Shown: positions 7,593-16,567 of the stretch, one piece after another
Position numbering within the stretch: the first letter of the stretch is position 1
Layout of the letters: each line of letters opens with the position of its first letter
NCBI RefSeq assembly: GCF_003008515.1
Contig: NZ_CP027668.1
Coordinates: forward strand, 2,955,001 to 3,019,000
Direction: 5' to 3'
From: Phreatobacter cathodiphilus
GTDB taxonomy: Bacteria > Pseudomonadota > Alphaproteobacteria > Rhizobiales > Phreatobacteraceae
DNA: 64,000 nt
Translations under genes and position numbers: made by a program
Notes under the pieces: model-generated
What the model was told of the DNA's origin: nothing
Database searches by the model: none
Seen by the model: only the letters and a program-made list of their open reading frames with translations

Positions 7593-10500
7593 CTAGCGCG
7601 GTGCGATGAAGGGCCGGCGCTTGGCCGGGCCCTTCTCGACCGGCGCCGCCGACTTCAGCGCCCGCATGATCCAGTGGCGGGATTCCGCCGGGTCGATGAC
7701 GCCGTCGATCTCCAGGAAGGCCGCCATGTTGACCGCCTTGCCCTTCTGGTAGAGCTCGGCGACGTGGCGCTGGTAGGTCGCCTCGCGCTCGGCCGGGTCG
7801 GCGATGGCGGCGAGTTCGTTGCGGTAGGCGAGCCTGACGGCCCCTTCGAGGCCCATGCCGCCGAACTCGCCGGTGGGCCAGGAGACGATGAAGACCGGCG
7901 CCTGGAACGAGCCCGCCGCCATGGCCTGGGCGCCGAGCCCGTAGCCCTTGCGCAGCACGATGGTCATCAGCGGCACGGTGAGCGTCGCCCCCGACAGGAA
8001 CAGCCGCGAAACCCGCCGCACCAGCGCCGTCTCCTCCGCCGGCGGCCCCACCATGAAGCCGGGCGTGTCGCAGAGGGAGAGGACCGGCAGGCCGTAGCCC
8101 TCGCAGAGTTCGAGGAAGCGGGCGCCCTTCTCGGCGCCCTCGGCGTCGATGGCGCCGCCGAGGTGTCGCGGATTGTTCGCGATGAGCCCCATCGGCCGGC
8201 CCTCGACCCGGATCAGGGCGGTGATCATGCCGACGCCGTGGGCGGCCCTCAGTTCCATCACCGAGCCCGCGTCGGCGAGGAGGTCGATCACCGCGCGGAT
8301 GTCGTAGGCACGCAGCCGGTTTTCCGGGATGGCGGCGCGCAGCCGTTCCTGATCGGCGGCGGTCCACTCCGCCACCGGCCCCTGGAAATAGGCGAGGTAG
8401 CGCTTGGCCGCAGCCACCGCCTCCGCCTCGTCCTTCACCAGCAGGTCGACCACGCCGTTCGGCACCTGTACCGCCATCGGCCCGACCTCCTCGGGCGTGA
8501 AGACGCCGAGGCCCCCGCCCTCGATCATGGCGGGGCCGCCCATGCCGAGATTGGCGTTCTCGGTGGCGATGATGACGTCGCAGCAGCCGGCGACCGCGGC
8601 GTTGCCGGCGAAGCAGCGGCCGGAGACGATGGCGACCGTCGGCGCCCGCCCGCTGTGGCCGGCGAGCATGCGGAAGGTCGGCACGTCGAGCCCGGCGACG
8701 CCCATGTAGTCGGTCTCGCCCGGCCGCCCTCCCCCGCCCTCGGCGAAGACGACGATGGGCAGGCGCTGCTCCTCCGCCAGGCGGAACATCCGGTCCATCT
8801 TCTTGTGGTTCATGAAGCCCTGGGTGCCGGCGAAGACCGTGTAGTCGTAGGTCATCGCCATGCAGCGGGCGGCCTCCTCGCCGAACAGGCCGGCATTGAC
8901 CGTGCCGACGCCGCAGATCAGCCCGTCTGCCGGGCTCATCTCGCGCAGCTCCTCGAGGCTGCGGCGGCGGCGCTGGGCCGCCAGCGCCAGGGCGCCGTAT
9001 TCCATGAAACTGCCGTCGTCGCAGAGGTCGGCGATGTTCTCGCGCGCCGTGCGCTGGCCGGTCTTGCGCCGCCGCGCCACGGCCTTCGGGCGGCGATGGT
9101 CCTGGAGCGCGTCGTGCATGTCGAGGACTTCGGCGAGATCGGCACGGATGGCCCCGTGGGCATCCCCCGCCCCGGTCTCCCCGGCCTCGGCGGCGATGTC
9201 GGCGGGTTCGAGGAAGGCCAGCGCCTCGCCGGCATCGGCCTGATCTCCGGCCTTCAGCGGCAGGGCGCGGACGATGCCGGCGCGTTCCGCCAGCACCACG
9301 TGCTCCATCTTCATCGCCTCGATGACGGCGACCTGCCGGCCCGCGGCCACCGCCTCGCCCTCGGCGACGTCGATGGAGACGATGCGCCCGCTCATCGGTG
9401 CCGCCACCGGCTCGGTGCCCTCGGGGCGGGAGGCTGCGAGCTTCGCCATGGCGGGCCCCGCGGCCCCCGCCGCGAACCGCGTCACCCGCGGCGTCGCGAT
9501 CAGCCGCGCCGCGTTCCTTTCGACGTAGGCGGTGTCGACCCGAGCCGCCAGCACGTCATCGTCCGCCAGCAGGGCCTGCAGCACGGAAAGATTGGTCTCG
9601 ACGCCCTCGATGCGGAACTCGGCCAGCGCCCGGAAGGCCTTGGCTGCCGCGGCGCGCCAGTCGCCGGACGGTGCGTGGGCGATGACCTTGGCGAGCAGCG
9701 AGTCGAAGCTCGTCACCGTGCGATAGCCGGCATGGGCGAAGGTCTCGACGCGGATACCCGGCCCTCCCGGCGGATCGAAGGCGGCGAGCGTGCCGCCGGT
9801 CGGGGTAGCGCTGCCGTCGGCGGCCATGCGCTCCATGTTGACGCGCAGCTGCACCGCCGTGCCGCGGGCGCTCACCCTCTCCTGCGACAGGCCGAGAGCG
9901 GCCAGCGTCTCGCCCGCCGCGAGGCGGATCTGCGTCTGGACGAGATCGACGCCAGTGATCTCCTCGGTCACCGTGTGCTCCACCTGAAGGCGCGGATTGG
10001 CCTCCATGAAGACGAAGCGGCCGGCGGCCTCGTCGACGAGGAATTCCACCGTCGTCAGCGTGCGCACCTGCGCGGCGCGGGCGAGCGACACCGCCGCGGC
10101 GAAGATCGCCTCGCGCAATGCGGGGCCGAGACCCGGCGCGGGAGCGATCTCGATGAGTTTCTGATGGCGACGCTGCAGGCTGCATTCCCGCTCGAGCAAA
10201 TGCATCACCGCACCGCCCGCATCGCCGAGGATCTGCACCTCTACGTGTTTCGCCGGCCGGATCAGTTCCTCGACATAGAGCGCGTCGGAGCCGAAGGCGG
10301 CCTTCGCCTCCGATCCCGCGCGGAGAAAGGCGTCCGCGAGGCCGGACGCGTCGTCGACGACGCGCATGCCGCGGCCGCCGCCGCCGGCGAGCGCCTTGAC
10401 CATGACCGGCCGGCCGCCGAGGGACGCCATGAAGGCCTCGGCCTCGGCAAGCGTCGTCGCGCCAGAGGTGCCCTCGGCCAGCGGCACGCCGACCTCCGCC

Positions 10501-10865
10501 GCCAGCCGGCGGGCGGCGGCCTTGTCGCCGAACAGGGCGAGGGTCTCCGGCGCGGGGCCGATGAAGGTCAGGCCGGCCGCCGCACAGGCCCGGGCGAAAT
10601 CCGCATTCTCCGACAGGAAGCCGTAGCCGGGATGCACCGCTTCGCAACCCGCCTCCACCGCCGCCGCGACAACCGCGGCGATGTCGAGATAGGCGGCGGC
10701 ACCCGCGCCCGGCAGCGCGACGGCCGCGTCGGCGCGCACCACGTGCAGCGAGGCCTTGTCGTCGGAGGAATAGACCGCCACCGAGGCGATGCCGAGATCG
10801 GCCAGCGCCCGCGCCACCCGGATGGAGACCTCGCCACGGTTGGCGATCAGCACTTTCTGGAACAT
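7593..10865 (-). CDS. single-chain biotin-dependent acyl-CoA carboxylase (BC-BCCP-CT fusion)
   Basis: A 1090-residue polypeptide carrying all parts of a biotin-dependent carboxylase. Biotin carboxylase occupies about 1-455, with the ATP-grasp loop GGGGRGM near 161-167 and EANPRLQVEHTVTE near 288-301. The biotin carrier domain spans about 485-555, with the biotinylation motif EAMKM and Lys519. The carboxyltransferase, of the propionyl-CoA carboxylase beta type, fills about 570-1080. Normally these lie on two or more subunits. It converts an acyl-CoA plus bicarbonate and ATP to a carboxyacyl-CoA; which acyl-CoA is not evident. It lies 36 bp downstream of an acyl-CoA ligase gene on the same strand, so ligase product is the likely substrate. 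The ATG at 10865 gives the standard MFQKVLIANRGE start. Confidence 0.9.
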   Translation of the reverse strand: MFQKVLIANRGEVSIRVARALADLGIASVAVYSSDDKASLHVVRADAAVALPGAGAAAYLDIAAVVAAAVEAGCEAVHPGYGFLSENADFARACAAAGLTFIGPAPETLALFGDKAAARRLAAEVGVPLAEGTSGATTLAEAEAFMASLGGRPVMVKALAGGGGRGMRVVDDASGLADAFLRAGSEAKAAFGSDALYVEELIRPAKHVEVQILGDAGGAVMHLLERECSLQRRHQKLIEIAPAPGLGPALREAIFAAAVSLARAAQVRTLTTVEFLVDEAAGRFVFMEANPRLQVEHTVTEEITGVDLVQTQIRLAAGETLAALGLSQERVSARGTAVQLRVNMERMAADGSATPTGGTLAAFDPPGGPGIRVETFAHAGYRTVTSFDSLLAKVIAHAPSGDWRAAAAKAFRALAEFRIEGVETNLSVLQALLADDDVLAARVDTAYVERNAARLIATPRVTRFAAGAAGPAMAKLAASRPEGTEPVAAPMSGRIVSIDVAEGEAVAAGRQVAVIEAMKMEHVVLAERAGIVRALPLKAGDQADAGEALAFLEPADIAAEAGETGAGDAHGAIRADLAEVLDMHDALQDHRRPKAVARRRKTGQRTARENIADLCDDGSFMEYGALALAAQRRRRSLEELREMSPADGLICGVGTVNAGLFGEEAARCMAMTYDYTVFAGTQGFMNHKKMDRMFRLAEEQRLPIVVFAEGGGGRPGETDYMGVAGLDVPTFRMLAGHSGRAPTVAIVSGRCFAGNAAVAGCCDVIIATENANLGMGGPAMIEGGGLGVFTPEEVGPMAVQVPNGVVDLLVKDEAEAVAAAKRYLAYFQGPVAEWTAADQERLRAAIPENRLRAYDIRAVIDLLADAGSVMELRAAHGVGMITALIRVEGRPMGLIANNPRHLGGAIDAEGAEKGARFLELCEGYGLPVLSLCDTPGFMVGPPAEETALVRRVSRLFLSGATLTVPLMTIVLRKGYGLGAQAMAAGSFQAPVFIVSWPTGEFGGMGLEGAVRLAYRNELAAIADPAEREATYQRHVAELYQKGKAVNMAAFLEIDGVIDPAESRHWIMRALKSAAPVEKGPAKRRPFIAPR

Positions 10866-10901
10866 GCGGAGCTTTCGCTTCTGGAAGGAAGGGGCGCGGC
10901 C

Positions 10902-12521
10902 TCAGCCGGCCAGTTTCTCGCGCCGAATGGAGATGCCGGCAGCCTCGCGGTCCCAGGTATCGGGGGTGAGGCCGGACTGGCGGACGAGATATTTCTCGAC
11001 CTTGCGGGTCGGCGTCTTCGGCAGGTCGTCAACGATGCGCACATAGCGCGGCACCATGAAATGGGCCATGCGGGGCTTAAGGAAGGCGATGAGGTCCGCC
11101 GGGTCGAGGCTCTGCCCCTCGGCGAGCGACACCGCAACCAGGATGTCGTCCTCACCGAATTCGCTCGGCACCGCCACCGCCGCCGCCTCGCGCACCGCCG
11201 GATGGGCCGCCACCTCCAGCTCCACCTCGAAGGACGAGACGTTCTCGCCGCGCCGGCGGATGGCGTCCTTGAAACGGTCGACGAAGAAGTAGTTGCCGTC
11301 GGCATCGGTGCGGAAGGCATCGCCCGTGTGGAACCAGCCGTTGCGCCAGGCGGCGGCCGTGGCCTCCGGATTCGCGTTGTAGCCGTGGTTCAGCGCCCAG
11401 GGCGCGTCGGTGCGGATGACGAGCTCGCCGATCTCGCCCGGCGCCACCTCCACGTCGTGGGCATCGACCAGGCGGAGTTGCACCCCCTTGCGGGGCTTGC
11501 CGCAGGTGGCGACGACGGTCGGGTTCGGCTCGGCGATGAGCGGGCAGGACACCTCGCTCATGTTGAAGAGCGTGCGCGTCGTCATGCCGAAGCGCTCGCG
11601 GAAGGCGACGCCCTCCGCCCCGAGCGGGATGATGATGACATTGGCGAGCGGCGTGTCGCGCTCGCCCGGCCGCACCGGCTCCTTCATCAGGAAGGAGGCC
11701 ATGACGCCGAGCAGGATCACCGCCGTCGTGCCGGTCGCCTCGACGGTTTGCCAGAAGGTGGAGGTCTCGAAGGCGTCGAGCAGGCTGATCGAGCCACCGC
11801 AGGCGAGCATGGCATAGGTCGGGGCCGTACCGCCGACATGGAACATCGGCAGGTTGACCATGAAGCGGTCGTCGGCGCCGACGAAGGGCGTGCCGTCGCG
11901 CTCGGCGGCGAGCGAGGTGCCCATGGCGTGGAGATGGGCATAGGAGGACAGGACGCCCTTCGACGGGCCGGTCGTGCCCGAGGTGTAGATGATGGACTGG
12001 GTGTCCCAGGCCTCGACGGGACGGGAAAGCGGCTTCACCTCGCCGTCGCTGGCGAGCGCCTCGGCGCCGAGCACGTCGAGGCCGGGAACGTCGGGGCGCT
12101 CGCCGCCCAGCACCACGACGCGCTCCAGCGCCGAGCGATCGATGTCGGCGAGGCGGCCGGCGAGCCCGCCATGGGCGATCATCAGGCGGGCGCCGGAATT
12201 GCGCACCACGTGTTCGAGAATGCCGCCGCGATAGGCCGTGTTGATCGGCACATAGACGGCGCCGGCATAGTTGATGGCGAACCAGACCCGCAGCACGTCG
12301 AGGCCGTTCGGCATCCAGACGAGCACGTGCTCGCCCTGCTGCACGCCGAGGTCCTGCAGCGCCCGCGCCATGGCGCGCACCTCCGCGCGCAGCCGCGCGT
12401 AGCTGACCGCGCCGCCGTCCGGCAGCACGACGAAAGCCTTGTCGGGCGTCGCCGCCGCGTGGCGGTCGATGAGGTTCGACAGAACGCAGCTGTCTCGGTC
12501 GGGCACACCGCCGACGGTCAT
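10902..12521 (-). CDS. AMP-forming acyl-CoA ligase (CaiC-like)
   Basis: Acyl-CoA synthetase of the ANL superfamily, 539 residues, that activates a carboxylic acid with ATP and joins it to CoA. Visible motifs are the P-loop YTSGTTGPSKG (around residue 165-175), NGWFHTGDAF with the hinge region DRFKDAIRRRGENVSS, and the C-terminal catalytic lysine region TPTRKVEK. Sequence style is closest to crotonobetaine/carnitine-CoA ligases. I start at the ATG at 12521, which has GGGAGG about 7 nt upstream, rather than the ATG six codons earlier. It is the first gene of a likely two-gene operon with the carboxylase. It is divergent from tetR, with a candidate operator between them. The acid substrate is unknown. 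Confidence 0.88.
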   Translation of the reverse strand: MTVGGVPDRDSCVLSNLIDRHAAATPDKAFVVLPDGGAVSYARLRAEVRAMARALQDLGVQQGEHVLVWMPNGLDVLRVWFAINYAGAVYVPINTAYRGGILEHVVRNSGARLMIAHGGLAGRLADIDRSALERVVVLGGERPDVPGLDVLGAEALASDGEVKPLSRPVEAWDTQSIIYTSGTTGPSKGVLSSYAHLHAMGTSLAAERDGTPFVGADDRFMVNLPMFHVGGTAPTYAMLACGGSISLLDAFETSTFWQTVEATGTTAVILLGVMASFLMKEPVRPGERDTPLANVIIIPLGAEGVAFRERFGMTTRTLFNMSEVSCPLIAEPNPTVVATCGKPRKGVQLRLVDAHDVEVAPGEIGELVIRTDAPWALNHGYNANPEATAAAWRNGWFHTGDAFRTDADGNYFFVDRFKDAIRRRGENVSSFEVELEVAAHPAVREAAAVAVPSEFGEDDILVAVSLAEGQSLDPADLIAFLKPRMAHFMVPRYVRIVDDLPKTPTRKVEKYLVRQSGLTPDTWDREAAGISIRREKLAG

Positions 12522-12619
12522 CGCGTTTCCTCCCGTCATGCCCCGTTCCGGGGGTCTTTGGGCCGTCGAGGGCCTGAGGCGGCCCCTCGCAGTCCGATGC
12601 TGAGGGGCCCGGCGGTCAA

Positions 12620-12642
12620 AATCAATAGACTAAATAATTATT
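12620..12642. promoter_or_regulatory. candidate TetR operator between ligase and tetR
   Basis: An AT-rich patch in very GC-rich DNA. It begins with AATCAATAG (12620-12628), identical to one arm of the perfect palindrome at 13488-13507. After 2 bp comes a degenerate right arm that matches 5 of 9 expected bases, overlapping the small palindrome AATAATTATT (12633-12642). It lies between the starts of the divergent ligase and tetR genes, where an autoregulating TetR would bind. Confidence 0.55.
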
Positions 12643-12709
12643 GTGCTCGTCCGTCCGGCTGATAGCATCCGGCCTCCCGTGCAACCACCGAGGCTGCAGT
12701 CCAGCATCC

Positions 12710-13450
12710 ATGACCAGCGCCGACAAGAGGGCCGCCCCGACCCCCGCCACGCGCGCGCCGCGCCGCCGACCGCCCGGTCGTCCGAAGCTCGCCGAGCGCG
12801 AGGGCCGCGATCCCACCCGCGACCTGCTCCTCGACGCCTCCATCGCCCTCTTCGCCCGCCACGGATTCGAGACGGTCACCACCGGCCAGATCGCCGAGGC
12901 GGCCGGCCTCACCCAGTCCATGGTGCACTACCATTTCGGCTCGAAGTCGAAGCTGTGGGAGGAGGCGATGCGCCGGCTGATGCGCCAGCGCGGCCGCCTG
13001 TTCCGCGCCACGGCCCGCGACCTCGCCGGGCTCGATCCGGTGGAGAAGCTGAAGGTGCTGATCCGCCGCCTCGTCGAGGCCAATGCCGAGAACCCCGACT
13101 ATGTCCGCATCGTCGTCCACGAGGGCACCACCCGCAGCCCGCGGCTCGCCTGGCTGGTGGAGACCTATCTCGCCCCCGGCTTCGGCGTCTTCGACCAGGC
13201 GCTGCGCGAGGCCATGGACGCCGGCGCCATTCCGCGCCGCCCGATCCACGACGTCACCAACGCCATCACCTCGGCCGCCTCGCTCAGCTTCGCCCTCCAC
13301 GCCATCGTCGAGGACATGTACGCCGTCGACCTCACCGCGCCGGACCGCATCCGCTCCTTCGCCGACACCATCGTCGACATCCTGTTCAACGGCCTGCTGG
13401 CGCGCCCCACCGTCCCGCCTGGCGGGTCGACCGGCGCCGCGGCCTCCTGA
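12710..13450 (+). CDS. TetR/AcrR family transcriptional regulator
   Basis: A 246-residue one-component regulator. The N-terminal helix-turn-helix domain (about 35-85) contains LFARHGFETVTTGQIAEAAG followed by the recognition helix SMVHYHFGSKSKLW. The rest is a ligand-binding helical domain without a nameable ligand signature. A basic, Pro-rich leader of about 30 residues precedes the domain. I start at the ATG at 12710; the frame runs further upstream but through the operator region. Candidate palindromic operators sit before it and after it, so it most likely represses itself, the divergent ligase-carboxylase operon and the downstream ligase-binding-protein operon. An acyl-CoA or free acid ligand is plausible by analogy with FadR/PaaR-type TetR members. 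Confidence 0.88.
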   Translation: MTSADKRAAPTPATRAPRRRPPGRPKLAEREGRDPTRDLLLDASIALFARHGFETVTTGQIAEAAGLTQSMVHYHFGSKSKLWEEAMRRLMRQRGRLFRATARDLAGLDPVEKLKVLIRRLVEANAENPDYVRIVVHEGTTRSPRLAWLVETYLAPGFGVFDQALREAMDAGAIPRRPIHDVTNAITSAASLSFALHAIVEDMYAVDLTAPDRIRSFADTIVDILFNGLLARPTVPPGGSTGAAAS

Positions 13451-13487
13451 CATCCGTCGGGAGACGGATGGGCCCACCACCCGCAAC

Positions 13488-13507
13488 AATCAATAGGGCT
13501 ATTGATT
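13488..13507. promoter_or_regulatory. perfect palindrome, probable TetR operator
   Basis: AATCAATAG-GG-CTATTGATT: two perfect 9-bp arms around a 2-bp centre, an AT-rich island in GC-rich surroundings. It lies 38 bp after the tetR stop and about 48 bp before the next CoA-ligase gene, so a repressor bound here would block that gene. The left arm recurs exactly at 12620-12628 upstream of tetR. Confidence 0.7.
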
Positions 13508-13554
13508 TTATGGCCTGACGGCGTCAGCCTGACCTCCAACGAAAAAAACCTGCG

Positions 13555-15267
13555 GTGGAGGATCGCTTGGACGAGAAGGCCTATCTCGCCATGGTGTCGG
13601 CGGTGCAGGATCGCCGCTGGCCGAAGGACTTGCCGCGCGAGCCGCAATATCCCTTCGGGCCCGTGCTGCTGACCGAGCACCTCGCCCGCTGGGCCGGGGT
13701 CCAGCCGGACAAGGCGGCGGTGAACTTCTACGGCGCCATCACCACTTTCGCCGAGCTCCACCGCCGGAGCGACGCCTTCGCGCAGCTCCTGCACTCGCTC
13801 GGCGTTCGGAAGGGCGACCGCGTCGCGGTCTTCCTGTCCAACTGCCCGCAATTCCTCGTCGCCTTCTACGGCATCCTCAAGCTCGGCGCGGTCCACGTGC
13901 CGGTGAACCCGATGTTCAAGGCGCCGGAGCTCGCCTACGAGCTCACCGACACCGGCGCCACCGTCCTGCTCGCCCTCGATCAGCTCTGGGACACCGTCGC
14001 CGAAGTCCTGCCGAAGACGAGCGTGAAGCACGTCATCGTCACCTCGCTCGCCGAGGCCGCGCCGGCCGTTCCCGCCATCCCCGCTCCGGCCTCCCTGTCG
14101 GTGCCGAAATGCGTGCCCGATGGCACCATCGACATGATGGCCGCGCTCGCCGCCTTCACCGGCCCCTTCACGCCGCCAGAGCCGGTCTCCCCCGACGACA
14201 TCGCCGCCCTCAACTATACCGGCGGCACCACCGGCATGCCCAAGGGCTGCATCCACACGCAAGGGGACATGGTCTACACGGCGGCCACCACCGTGCCCTT
14301 CTCCCTCGGCACGACGAAGGACTCGACCTATCTCTGCTACCTGCCGGTCTTCTGGGTCGCCGGCGAGGTCTTCGGCGTCATCTTCCCCATCTTCGCCGGC
14401 TGCACCTGCGTCCTCCTCAACCGCTGGGATCCCGTCGCCTCCATGGCGGCGATCGACCGCTTCCGCGTCACCCATGCGAGCTTCCTGGTCGACGGCGCCG
14501 TCGACATCCTCGACCACCCGGACCTGCCGAACTACGACCTCACCAGCCTCGAACGCACCGGCGGCGTCTCCTTCGTCAAGAAGCTGAACCCCGACCTGCG
14601 CCGCCGCTGGCGCGAGGTGACGGGCTCGACCATCCGCGAGGTCGCCTGGGGCATGACCGAGACCCACACCTGCGACACCATGAACTACGGGCTGGACGCG
14701 GACGATTTCGACCTCAACTCCCAGCCGGTCTTCGTCGGCTTTCCCGTTCCCGGCACCGAGTTCAAGATCTGCGACTTCGAGACCGGCGCGCTCAAGCCCC
14801 TCGGCGAGGAGGGCGAGATCTGCATCCGCTCGCCCTCGCTCTTCAAGGGCTACTGGAACCGCCCGGAGGCCAACGGCGAGGTGTTCCGCGCCGGCTGGTT
14901 CCACACCGGCGACATCGGCCTCTACGACGAGGACGGCATCCTGCACTTCCTCGGGCGCCGCAAGGAGATGCTCAAGGTCAACGGCATGAGCGTCTTCCCC
15001 GGCGAGCTCGAGGCGATCCTCGGCCAGTATCCCGGCCTCCTCGGCTCCGGCGTCATCGGCCGGCCGGACGAGGCCAAGGGCGAGGTTCCCGTCGCCTTCG
15101 TCTGGCTGCCGGAGGACCAGCGCAACCCCGCCGGCCAGACGGCCTTCGCCGACTGGGTGGGCACGATGATGTCCTCCTACAAGCGCCCCGAAATCCGCTT
15201 CGTCGATGCCCTGCCGATGACCGAGACCGGCAAGGTCAAGAAGGAGCAGCTGAAAGCCCTGCTCTGA
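13555..15267 (+). CDS. AMP-forming acyl-CoA synthetase (class I adenylate-forming)
   Basis: Second ligase of the locus, up to 570 residues. It shows the P-loop LNYTGGTTGMPKG (about 219-231), the adenine-binding WGMTETHTC, the hinge region GWFHTGDIGLYDEDG...LGRRKEMLKVNGMSVFP, and the C-terminal PMTETGKVKK with its catalytic lysine. It is only distantly similar to the minus-strand ligase at 10902-12521, so it is not a simple duplication and may use a different acid. The GTG at 13555 is the longest start. A TTG at 13567, with GTGGAGG about 5 nt before it, is an equally plausible start. The palindrome at 13488-13507 sits at its promoter. A binding-protein gene follows 64 bp downstream and is likely co-transcribed. 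Confidence 0.87.
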   Translation: MEDRLDEKAYLAMVSAVQDRRWPKDLPREPQYPFGPVLLTEHLARWAGVQPDKAAVNFYGAITTFAELHRRSDAFAQLLHSLGVRKGDRVAVFLSNCPQFLVAFYGILKLGAVHVPVNPMFKAPELAYELTDTGATVLLALDQLWDTVAEVLPKTSVKHVIVTSLAEAAPAVPAIPAPASLSVPKCVPDGTIDMMAALAAFTGPFTPPEPVSPDDIAALNYTGGTTGMPKGCIHTQGDMVYTAATTVPFSLGTTKDSTYLCYLPVFWVAGEVFGVIFPIFAGCTCVLLNRWDPVASMAAIDRFRVTHASFLVDGAVDILDHPDLPNYDLTSLERTGGVSFVKKLNPDLRRRWREVTGSTIREVAWGMTETHTCDTMNYGLDADDFDLNSQPVFVGFPVPGTEFKICDFETGALKPLGEEGEICIRSPSLFKGYWNRPEANGEVFRAGWFHTGDIGLYDEDGILHFLGRRKEMLKVNGMSVFPGELEAILGQYPGLLGSGVIGRPDEAKGEVPVAFVWLPEDQRNPAGQTAFADWVGTMMSSYKRPEIRFVDALPMTETGKVKKEQLKALL

Positions 15268-15331
15268 CATTTCCCCGACCATCGGGGCCAACGATCAACG
15301 ATAGCCGGCACGGCCGGCAAGGAGGACACCC

Positions 15332-16567
15332 ATGACATTCCTGTCCGGCAAAGGCCTGAGGCCCGCCGCATTCGCCCTCGCGGCCGCGATCCTGTCCCTG
15401 CCGCTCGCGGCGCCCGCCGGCGCCCAGCAGGGCGGCCCCATCCGCATCGGCATTCTCAACGACATGGGCGGCCCCTATTCCGCCATCACCGGTCCGGGCT
15501 CCGTCGCCGCCGCCCGCATGGCGGTGCAGGAGCTCGGCGGCACCGTCCTCGGCCGCCCGGTCGAGGTGCTCTCCGCCGACCACCAGCACAAGCCGGACCT
15601 CGGCTCCGCGCTCGCGCGCGAGTGGTACGACGTCCAGGGTGTCCGGGCGATCTTCGACATCTATTCCTCCGGCGTCGCCCTCGCCATCCAGAAGGTGGCG
15701 CAGGACAAGGACCGGCTGCTCGTCGTCTCCATGGCCTCGTCCAGCCTCATCGGTGGCGCCCAATGCTCCACCCACGGCATGCAGTGGGCCAATGACGGCT
15801 ACGTCGTCTCCAACCTCACCGTGAAGGGCGCCCACGCCACCGGTGGCAACACCTGGTACTTCCTCACCGTCGACTACGCCGCCGGCCACGGCATCGAGGC
15901 CGACGCGACCAAGATGATCGAGGCCGCCGGCGGAAAGGTCCTCGGCGCGGTTCGCTTCCCGCTCGGCACCGCCGACTTCTCGTCCTTCCTCCTGCGCGCC
16001 CAGGCCTCGGGCGCCAAGAACATCGGCTTCATCGGCGGCGGCTCCGACATGATCAACTCGGTCAAGCAGGCCGACGAGTTCGGCATCCGCGCCGCCGGCC
16101 AGCGCTACGTGCCCTTCTCCATGACCACGGTGGACATCCAGGCGGTGGGCGCCCAGGCGACCCAGGGCATGCCCGTCGTGCTCTCCTACTACTGGGGCGA
16201 GAACGCCGAGACGCGCGCCTTCGCCGACCGCTTCAAGCGCGAGGTCGGCCGCCTGCCGACGGACCCCCAGGCCAACGTCTACAGCGCCGTGCGGCACTAT
16301 CTGCGCGCCGTCGCTGCGGCAGGCACGATCGAGACCGGCCCGGTGCTCGCCAAGATGCGCGAGATGCCGGTGGAGGACGTCTTCACCCGCGGCGCCCGCA
16401 TCCGCGCCGACGGCCGCCTGATGCGCGAGGTCCTCTACGCCGAGGCCAAGGCTCCGGCCGAGATGCAGAATCCGGAGGATCTCCTCAAGATCGTCCAGCG
16501 CGTGCCCGGCGACCAGGCCTTCACGCCGGTGGCCCAGAGCCAGTGCCCGCTGCTGCGCACGCAGTAA
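15332..16567 (+). CDS. periplasmic binding protein of a branched-chain-amino-acid-type ABC transporter
   Basis: A 411-residue exported ligand-binding protein of the LivK-like (Peripla_BP_6) family. Residues 1-31 form a clear signal peptide, with probable cleavage after the APAGA stretch. The mature part starts with GGPIRIGILNDMGGPYSAITGPG, the typical opening of the first Rossmann-like lobe, and reaches the usual length of about 380 residues. Alphaproteobacterial members often bind aromatic or aliphatic carboxylates rather than amino acids. An AAGGAGG site lies 6 nt before the ATG. It follows an acyl-CoA synthetase in the presumed TetR-controlled operon, suggesting it captures the acid that the ligase activates. 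No permease or ATPase gene is in the window. A terminator follows directly. Confidence 0.87.
   Translation: MTFLSGKGLRPAAFALAAAILSLPLAAPAGAQQGGPIRIGILNDMGGPYSAITGPGSVAAARMAVQELGGTVLGRPVEVLSADHQHKPDLGSALAREWYDVQGVRAIFDIYSSGVALAIQKVAQDKDRLLVVSMASSSLIGGAQCSTHGMQWANDGYVVSNLTVKGAHATGGNTWYFLTVDYAAGHGIEADATKMIEAAGGKVLGAVRFPLGTADFSSFLLRAQASGAKNIGFIGGGSDMINSVKQADEFGIRAAGQRYVPFSMTTVDIQAVGAQATQGMPVVLSYYWGENAETRAFADRFKREVGRLPTDPQANVYSAVRHYLRAVAAAGTIETGPVLAKMREMPVEDVFTRGARIRADGRLMREVLYAEAKAPAEMQNPEDLLKIVQRVPGDQAFTPVAQSQCPLLRTQ

Follow-up and report, generated by a model that had tools for sequence, protein, structure and literature searches.

A central TetR regulator, two predicted operators and a single-chain acyl-CoA carboxylase: a candidate acid assimilation module in Phreatobacter cathodiphilus

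The stretch of 64,000 nucleotides analysed here, called the window, is part of a single 4.49-Mb Phreatobacter contig (NZ_CP027668.1 of P. cathodiphilus). Between positions 7593 and 16567 it holds five genes in a divergent arrangement around a central gene for a TetR-family regulator (tetR), and the open reading frames (ORFs) bear out the layout given by a first-pass annotation of the same DNA. On the minus strand lies the gene for a single-chain acyl-coenzyme A (CoA) carboxylase of 1090 amino acids (7593-10865), recognized by its Pfam domain order and its match to the solved structure 4rcn. This enzyme is referred to as LCC, for long-chain acyl-CoA carboxylase. On the same strand and 36 bp upstream of it is lig1 (10902-12539), an AMP-forming acyl-CoA ligase gene according to Pfam and NCBIfam. 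The plus strand carries tetR (12710-13450; domains TetR_N and TetR_C_29), lig2 (13555-15267), which encodes an AMP-forming acyl-CoA synthetase above the cut-off of its NCBIfam model, and the gene of a periplasmic binding protein (15332-16567; Peripla_BP_6 by Pfam, with a predicted-fold match). Two predicted operators flank tetR. Operator 1 (12620-12639) is an imperfect palindrome in the tetR/lig1 divergent promoter region, recognized by its conservation in seven genomes, and operator 2 (13488-13507) is a perfect 9+2+9 palindrome between tetR and lig2 that ends 47 bp before lig2.

The tetR product contains the TetR DNA-binding domain (PF00440) at residues 63-108, with 51.1 bits against a cut-off of 24. 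The longest ORF (12641-13450) opens with a TTG codon directly after operator 1. The start is likely the ATG at 12710, 23 codons into this frame, so automatic annotation may yield a protein 23 residues too long. Operator 2 reads AATCAATAG-GG-CTATTGATT. The perfect palindrome reported earlier at this place is real: it is the sole match in the window at up to three mismatches, none of 100 shuffles gave one, and the pattern occurs at one place in the whole genome under the same tolerance. The exact pattern was also seen in two viral contigs (L195, 9728-9747; L196, 505-524). The arm AATCAATAG is found in the window only at 12620 (+), 13488 (+) and 13499 (-), against an expectation of 0.01. The exact recurrence of the left arm at 12620-12628, described in the first-pass annotation, therefore holds, but it is no lone half-site; it forms half of the 20-bp operator 1, AATCAATAG-AC-TAAATAATT, and relatives largely retain the other half as well. 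A degenerate operator pattern with up to three mismatches retrieved only operators 1 and 2 from the genome. The matches listed in a literature search for TetR regulators with this operator core were unrelated in subject, judging by their titles.

The same gene order and both operators are present in relatives. In a set of 12 Phreatobacter genomes, the window's own included, seven carry the complete set of five genes with both operators. The genes tetR, lig2 and a close binding-protein homologue (at least 72% identity) were each found at neighbouring coordinates in G000, G001, G003, G005, G006, G008 and G011. Likewise, lig1 occurs in seven of the 12, and lig1 and LCC adjoin the other three genes; the exception is G001, a 480-contig assembly in which LCC lies on a different contig from lig1 and the rest. 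Both sites stand out in alignments of the seven tetR-bearing genomes. Operator 1 is the most conserved 20-column block of the tetR/lig1 intergenic region (15 of 20 columns invariant, 39 of 284 overall), and operator 2 falls in the most conserved block between tetR and lig2, where 13 of 20 columns are invariant in a tie with overlapping windows (38 of 155 overall). No LCC-level match was found in G002, G004 and G009, where the best E-value was about 1e-109, compared to 0 in the nine other genomes. In G007 and G010, where LCC has no tetR close by, the 19 kb surrounding LCC contained no operator. The LCC neighbours are OpgC and TctC genes in G010 (L113, G010:C26), and 2Fe-2S and pyridine-nucleotide oxidoreductase genes in G007 (L116, G007:C1). 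No such operator was found at the second LCC loci of G005 and G011 either. At these loci (L120, G005:C13, 9520-18262; L119, G011:C5, 9872-18608), the second LCC (62%) belongs to a gene run that contains a lig2-like ligase (54-55%). In L119 the run also includes oligopeptide-type permease and ATPase genes by Pfam, followed by a response regulator and a histidine kinase.

Outside the genus, the regulator was searched in a draw of 385 alphaproteobacterial genomes (E<=1e-25). Matches were obtained in eight: the window's own genome, three Tistrella genomes at about 50% identity, and four others at 28-33%. The figure of three refers to matching genomes, the total number of Tistrella in the draw not being listed. 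In Tistrella, the genes follow each other in one direction as lig1-LCC-binding protein-tetR, and one of these regions lies on a contig that matches plasmid pTM2 of Tistrella mobilis (NC_017966.1) in content. An operator precedes lig1, 53 bp ahead of it in the annotated record, and in each of the three genomes this site is the only match to the operator pattern at up to three mismatches. Moreover, a matrix was built from 14 Phreatobacter sites with Tistrella excluded, and scans covered two of the Tistrella regions (L171 and L173). The Tistrella site scored 29.8, close to the minimum of 30.9 among the matrix's own sites, and the next-best scores were 8.9 in L171 and 14.4 in L173. This held-out site is the strongest sequence evidence tying the regulator, the operator and the lig1-LCC-binding-protein set together. 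The lig2 gene lies outside the operon, elsewhere in the Tistrella genome, which means that lig2 is not obligatory there. In one Tistrella region read (L174, G261:C4, 7534-11026), a lig2 homologue (56%) and a stand-alone carboxyltransferase gene are divergently oriented, another case of a ligase beside a carboxylase part.

Control of the locus by one local TetR through two predicted operators is well supported by these comparisons, because genes and operators recur together in Phreatobacter and the Tistrella orthologue comes with a matching operator. The earlier proposal of a single regulator for both arms is thereby strengthened.

The carboxylase combines in one chain biotin carboxylase (BC) domains (1-449), a Biotin_lipoyl domain (487-550) and a Carboxyl_trans domain (600-1073), and carries the biotin motif EAMKM. 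It aligns with 4rcn, a solved long-chain acyl-CoA carboxylase, over residues 4-1071 of 1090 (1132 bits). No NCBIfam model among the matches listed (25 of 49) meets its cut-off; the best of the carboxylase models, which include pyruvate carboxylase NF009554, reached 596.9 bits against a cut-off of 965. With the 4rcn enzyme it shares the single chain of BC, carrier and carboxyltransferase domains. What distinguishes the window's gene is its association with a local TetR regulator, a pair of ligases and a binding protein. The two ligases are only about 27% identical to each other. The lig2 product exceeds the cut-off of NF004822 (PRK06178) with 849.6 bits against 782, and the nearest model of lig1, NF004808 (PRK06155, ATP-dependent acyl-CoA ligase), gave 471.8 bits, below its cut-off of 722. 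Structure models of the lig1 product and the binding protein (mean predicted local distance difference test scores 74.7 and 75.5) returned general-fold matches that name no substrate. The nearest solved relatives of the binding protein are 3i09 and 3n0w (37-38% identity), both of which the predicted fold matches. The ligand of 3n0w is stated as unknown in PMC3354956. Relatives retrieved by fold include binders of aromatic acids, urea, amides and amino acids. Those for aromatic acids, urea and amides (4evs, 4ey3, UrtA, AmiC) have the same fold, and several are also sequence matches, but they are only 17-23% identical to the window's protein in the fold search.

We infer the metabolic route from the enzyme families and the repeated partnership of the genes. 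The locus is probably, though not securely, a locally regulated assimilation module in which an acid is imported, activated with CoA and carboxylated. The TetR protein, most likely a repressor, would bind the two 20-bp operators, whose positions are shown by comparison, and would control its own gene, the lig1-LCC unit and the lig2-binding-protein unit. Its ligand would probably be the acid or the CoA thioester of the acid. With the ligand present, the binding protein would capture the acid and hand it over to an ATP-binding cassette (ABC) transporter presumably encoded elsewhere. One of the two ligases, as their families and gene partnership suggest, would form the CoA thioester, and the carboxylase would add CO2, probably at the alpha carbon, to give an alkylmalonyl-CoA-type product for central metabolism. 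By its chemistry such a carboxylase needs an acid whose C-H beside the thioester, or at the vinylogous position, can be enolised; simple benzoates are therefore unlikely. The acyl-CoA carboxylase of stambomycin biosynthesis is alike in that an acyl-CoA thioester is carboxylated directly to alkylmalonyl-CoA; it differs in being described by its beta-subunit and in feeding a polyketide synthase, and the abstract names no uptake genes (PMC5187497).

Comparable gene sets surround LCC in other lineages. For instance, on a plasmid of Paracoccus jeotgali a single run contains a binding protein (37%), two unlike ligases, LCC and four branched-chain-type ABC genes (both permeases and both ATPases); the ligases are lig1-like (31%) and lig2-like (40%), both below the NCBIfam cut-offs. 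Bradyrhizobium betae has homologues of lig1 (67%), lig2 (54%), the binding protein (67%) and LCC (58%). Its locus includes a MarR gene and a CoA-transferase, lig1 lies one gene from LCC, and no TetR match was found there. TetR, LCC, a lig2-like ligase (52%) and genes of a tripartite ATP-independent periplasmic (TRAP) transporter occur on a Pseudosulfitobacter plasmid, and a CoA-transferase, LCC, oligopeptide-type ABC genes and a lig2-like ligase (52%) on a Haematobacter plasmid; an Acuticoccus plasmid has a lig1-like ligase (50%) and LCC. In Ralstonia, Cupriavidus and Variovorax, TetR, a ligase, LCC and a LivK-type binding protein stand together, the TetR and the binding protein being distant from those of the window. 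For 12 LCC loci (11 of Burkholderiaceae or Comamonadaceae, and Undibacterium), the surroundings of the TetR genes were searched for palindromes, and no similar motif was found among the best four per region. The TetR proteins of these loci have about 33% identity to that of the window over 78-97 residues, and the binding proteins 25-27%. Given such distant regulators and binding proteins, the like architecture may have arisen separately. Ligases of the PRK06178 model adjoin LCC in Ralstonia (L079) and in Deinococcus radiodurans, where the match is above the cut-off and a TetR gene is also adjacent. The single-chain carboxylase of D. radiodurans, presumably that of PDB entries 5fif and 5h80, is the same kind of enzyme. 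The TetR of D. radiodurans resembles that of the window only over residues 11-112 (32%), and the nearest binding protein is UrtA of a urea operon, about 7 kb away. We take PA1400 to be the LCC of P. aeruginosa; in the record of that LCC, a LysR gene is a neighbour and no ligase is annotated within 9 kb. PA1400 is called a pyruvate carboxylase and listed among biotinylated proteins in the available part of one paper (PMC9894557), which gives no substrate.

For the neighbours of LCC, 62 (L033-L094) of 80 loci were considered; the Phreatobacter locus L032 was left out, as were L095-L111, which were assumed, without a test, to be other or two-subunit enzymes. The counts refer to the 50 loci with at least six ORFs and an LCC ORF no shorter than 1000 amino acids; seed proteins served to assign the gene classes. 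One of the 50, Hydrogenophaga L085, has a divergent carboxylase (39%, very long branch) that is perhaps not an LCC. In 22 of the 50, a ligase or family III CoA-transferase lies within three genes of LCC; an importer gene lies within six genes in 21, both occur together in 19, and a TetR gene lies within three genes in 15. Counted by genus-level label, an activation gene is present in 14 of 39, and activation with an importer in 11 of 39. The importers vary in type (Liv, Opp, TRAP, TctC). In a quick tree of 77 LCCs, with SH-aLRT support only and several long branches, the context of uptake and ligase genes appears on several separate branches, and the Tistrella and second Phreatobacter copies are closest to the window's clade. 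It is tentatively proposed, as a possibility that falls somewhat short of an even chance, that many LCCs act outside lipid metabolism, as the final step of a widespread and undescribed modular route: import an acid, make the CoA thioester, carboxylate. Around a constant carboxylase, the importer (Liv, Opp, TRAP or TctC), the activator (lig1, PRK06178-type lig2 or family III CoA-transferase) and the regulator (TetR, MarR or others) would be swapped. Ligases make up 24 of 283 genes at up to three positions from LCC and 1 of 284 at six or more (Fisher 5e-7), a p-value that is optimistic because related genomes repeat and the seeds were picked after a first look.

This optimism weighs against the assimilation readings, and so do several further observations. 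At 28 of the 50 loci, no activation gene lies within three genes of LCC. G007 and G010 keep LCC without the other locus genes nearby. A lig1 homologue was found in 20 other alphaproteobacteria at E<=1e-130, with few candidates per genome scored. Of these, 11 also have an LCC-type match (E<=1e-150), which lies beside lig1 only in the three Tistrella and on another contig in eight; the other nine have no match at this threshold. On the side of regulation, the degenerate operator pattern occurs off-locus at 11 places across the 12 Phreatobacter genomes with two or three mismatches, compared to four for the reversed control, and the function of these places as sites is unproven. A promoter and terminator scan of 12400-13700 gave no match and no sigma-70-like promoter. 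Furthermore, no permease or ATPase gene of a complete ABC importer was present among the five locus genes and three flanking genes scanned, nor was an ABC permease or ATPase gene found in the annotated Tistrella region, where a major facilitator superfamily transporter lies about 3 kb beyond tetR. The path of capture, activation and carboxylation put forward in the first-pass annotation gains support from other lineages such as Paracoccus and is supported in part. Finally, the characterised LCC is active from C2 to C16 and has by far its lowest Michaelis constant for palmitoyl-CoA, as given in PMC6491548, and such data would fit a plain fatty acid as well.

This preference for palmitoyl-CoA also speaks for a role of LCC in general fatty-acid and lipid metabolism, in which long-chain acyl-CoAs would be alpha-carboxylated, the ligases would be ordinary enzymes of the FadD type, and the binding protein would lie there by chance or as a sensor. 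Acyl-CoA dehydrogenase genes beside several LCC loci and the lack of a permease beside the binding protein among the locus genes examined point the same way. Such a role is nonetheless considered unlikely. LCC is accompanied by the binding protein in Phreatobacter, Tistrella and B. betae, importers of different kinds are repeatedly found next to it in other lineages, and the lig1-like and lig2-like ligases of Paracoccus, albeit below the model cut-offs, are found together again. The locus could also serve two separate paths under a shared regulator, with lig1-LCC for one acid, and lig2 with the binding protein for another. The opposite directions of the two arms and the Tistrella operon, which lacks lig2, agree with this. 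However, in Tistrella the binding protein is grouped with lig1-LCC, and Ralstonia and Cupriavidus have a lig2-type ligase together with LCC, so that either ligase, and the binding protein too, partners LCC in some lineage; two paths are hence rated as less probable still.

The operators might instead be occupied by another conserved factor. Both are rich in AT and lie in promoter regions, and TetR binding there is predicted from sequence. Yet all seven tetR-bearing Phreatobacter genomes have both sites, neither site was found in the tetR-free LCC regions of G007 and G010, and Tistrella keeps TetR and operator although the operon is rearranged, which makes another factor highly improbable. The assimilation module under its own TetR remains the preferred reading.

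Among the papers listed in literature searches, no title or abstract start described this gene set, which is no proof of absence, since most subscription papers lay outside the search. The conserved regulator, operator and binding protein provide three handles on the substrate of LCC, which could be approached through the ligand of the binding protein, the substrate of the ligases and the compound that releases the regulator. If true, the wider pattern would name a general bacterial way of assimilating acids by carboxylation. A cluster on plasmid 9 of Rhodococcus opacus PD630 (L178, 2904-22625) groups LCC, a two-subunit carboxylase and three CoA ligases with genes annotated as 4-hydroxybutyryl-CoA dehydratase, alpha-methylacyl-CoA racemase and shikimate transporter; it may represent a fuller pathway and a hint at the substrate.

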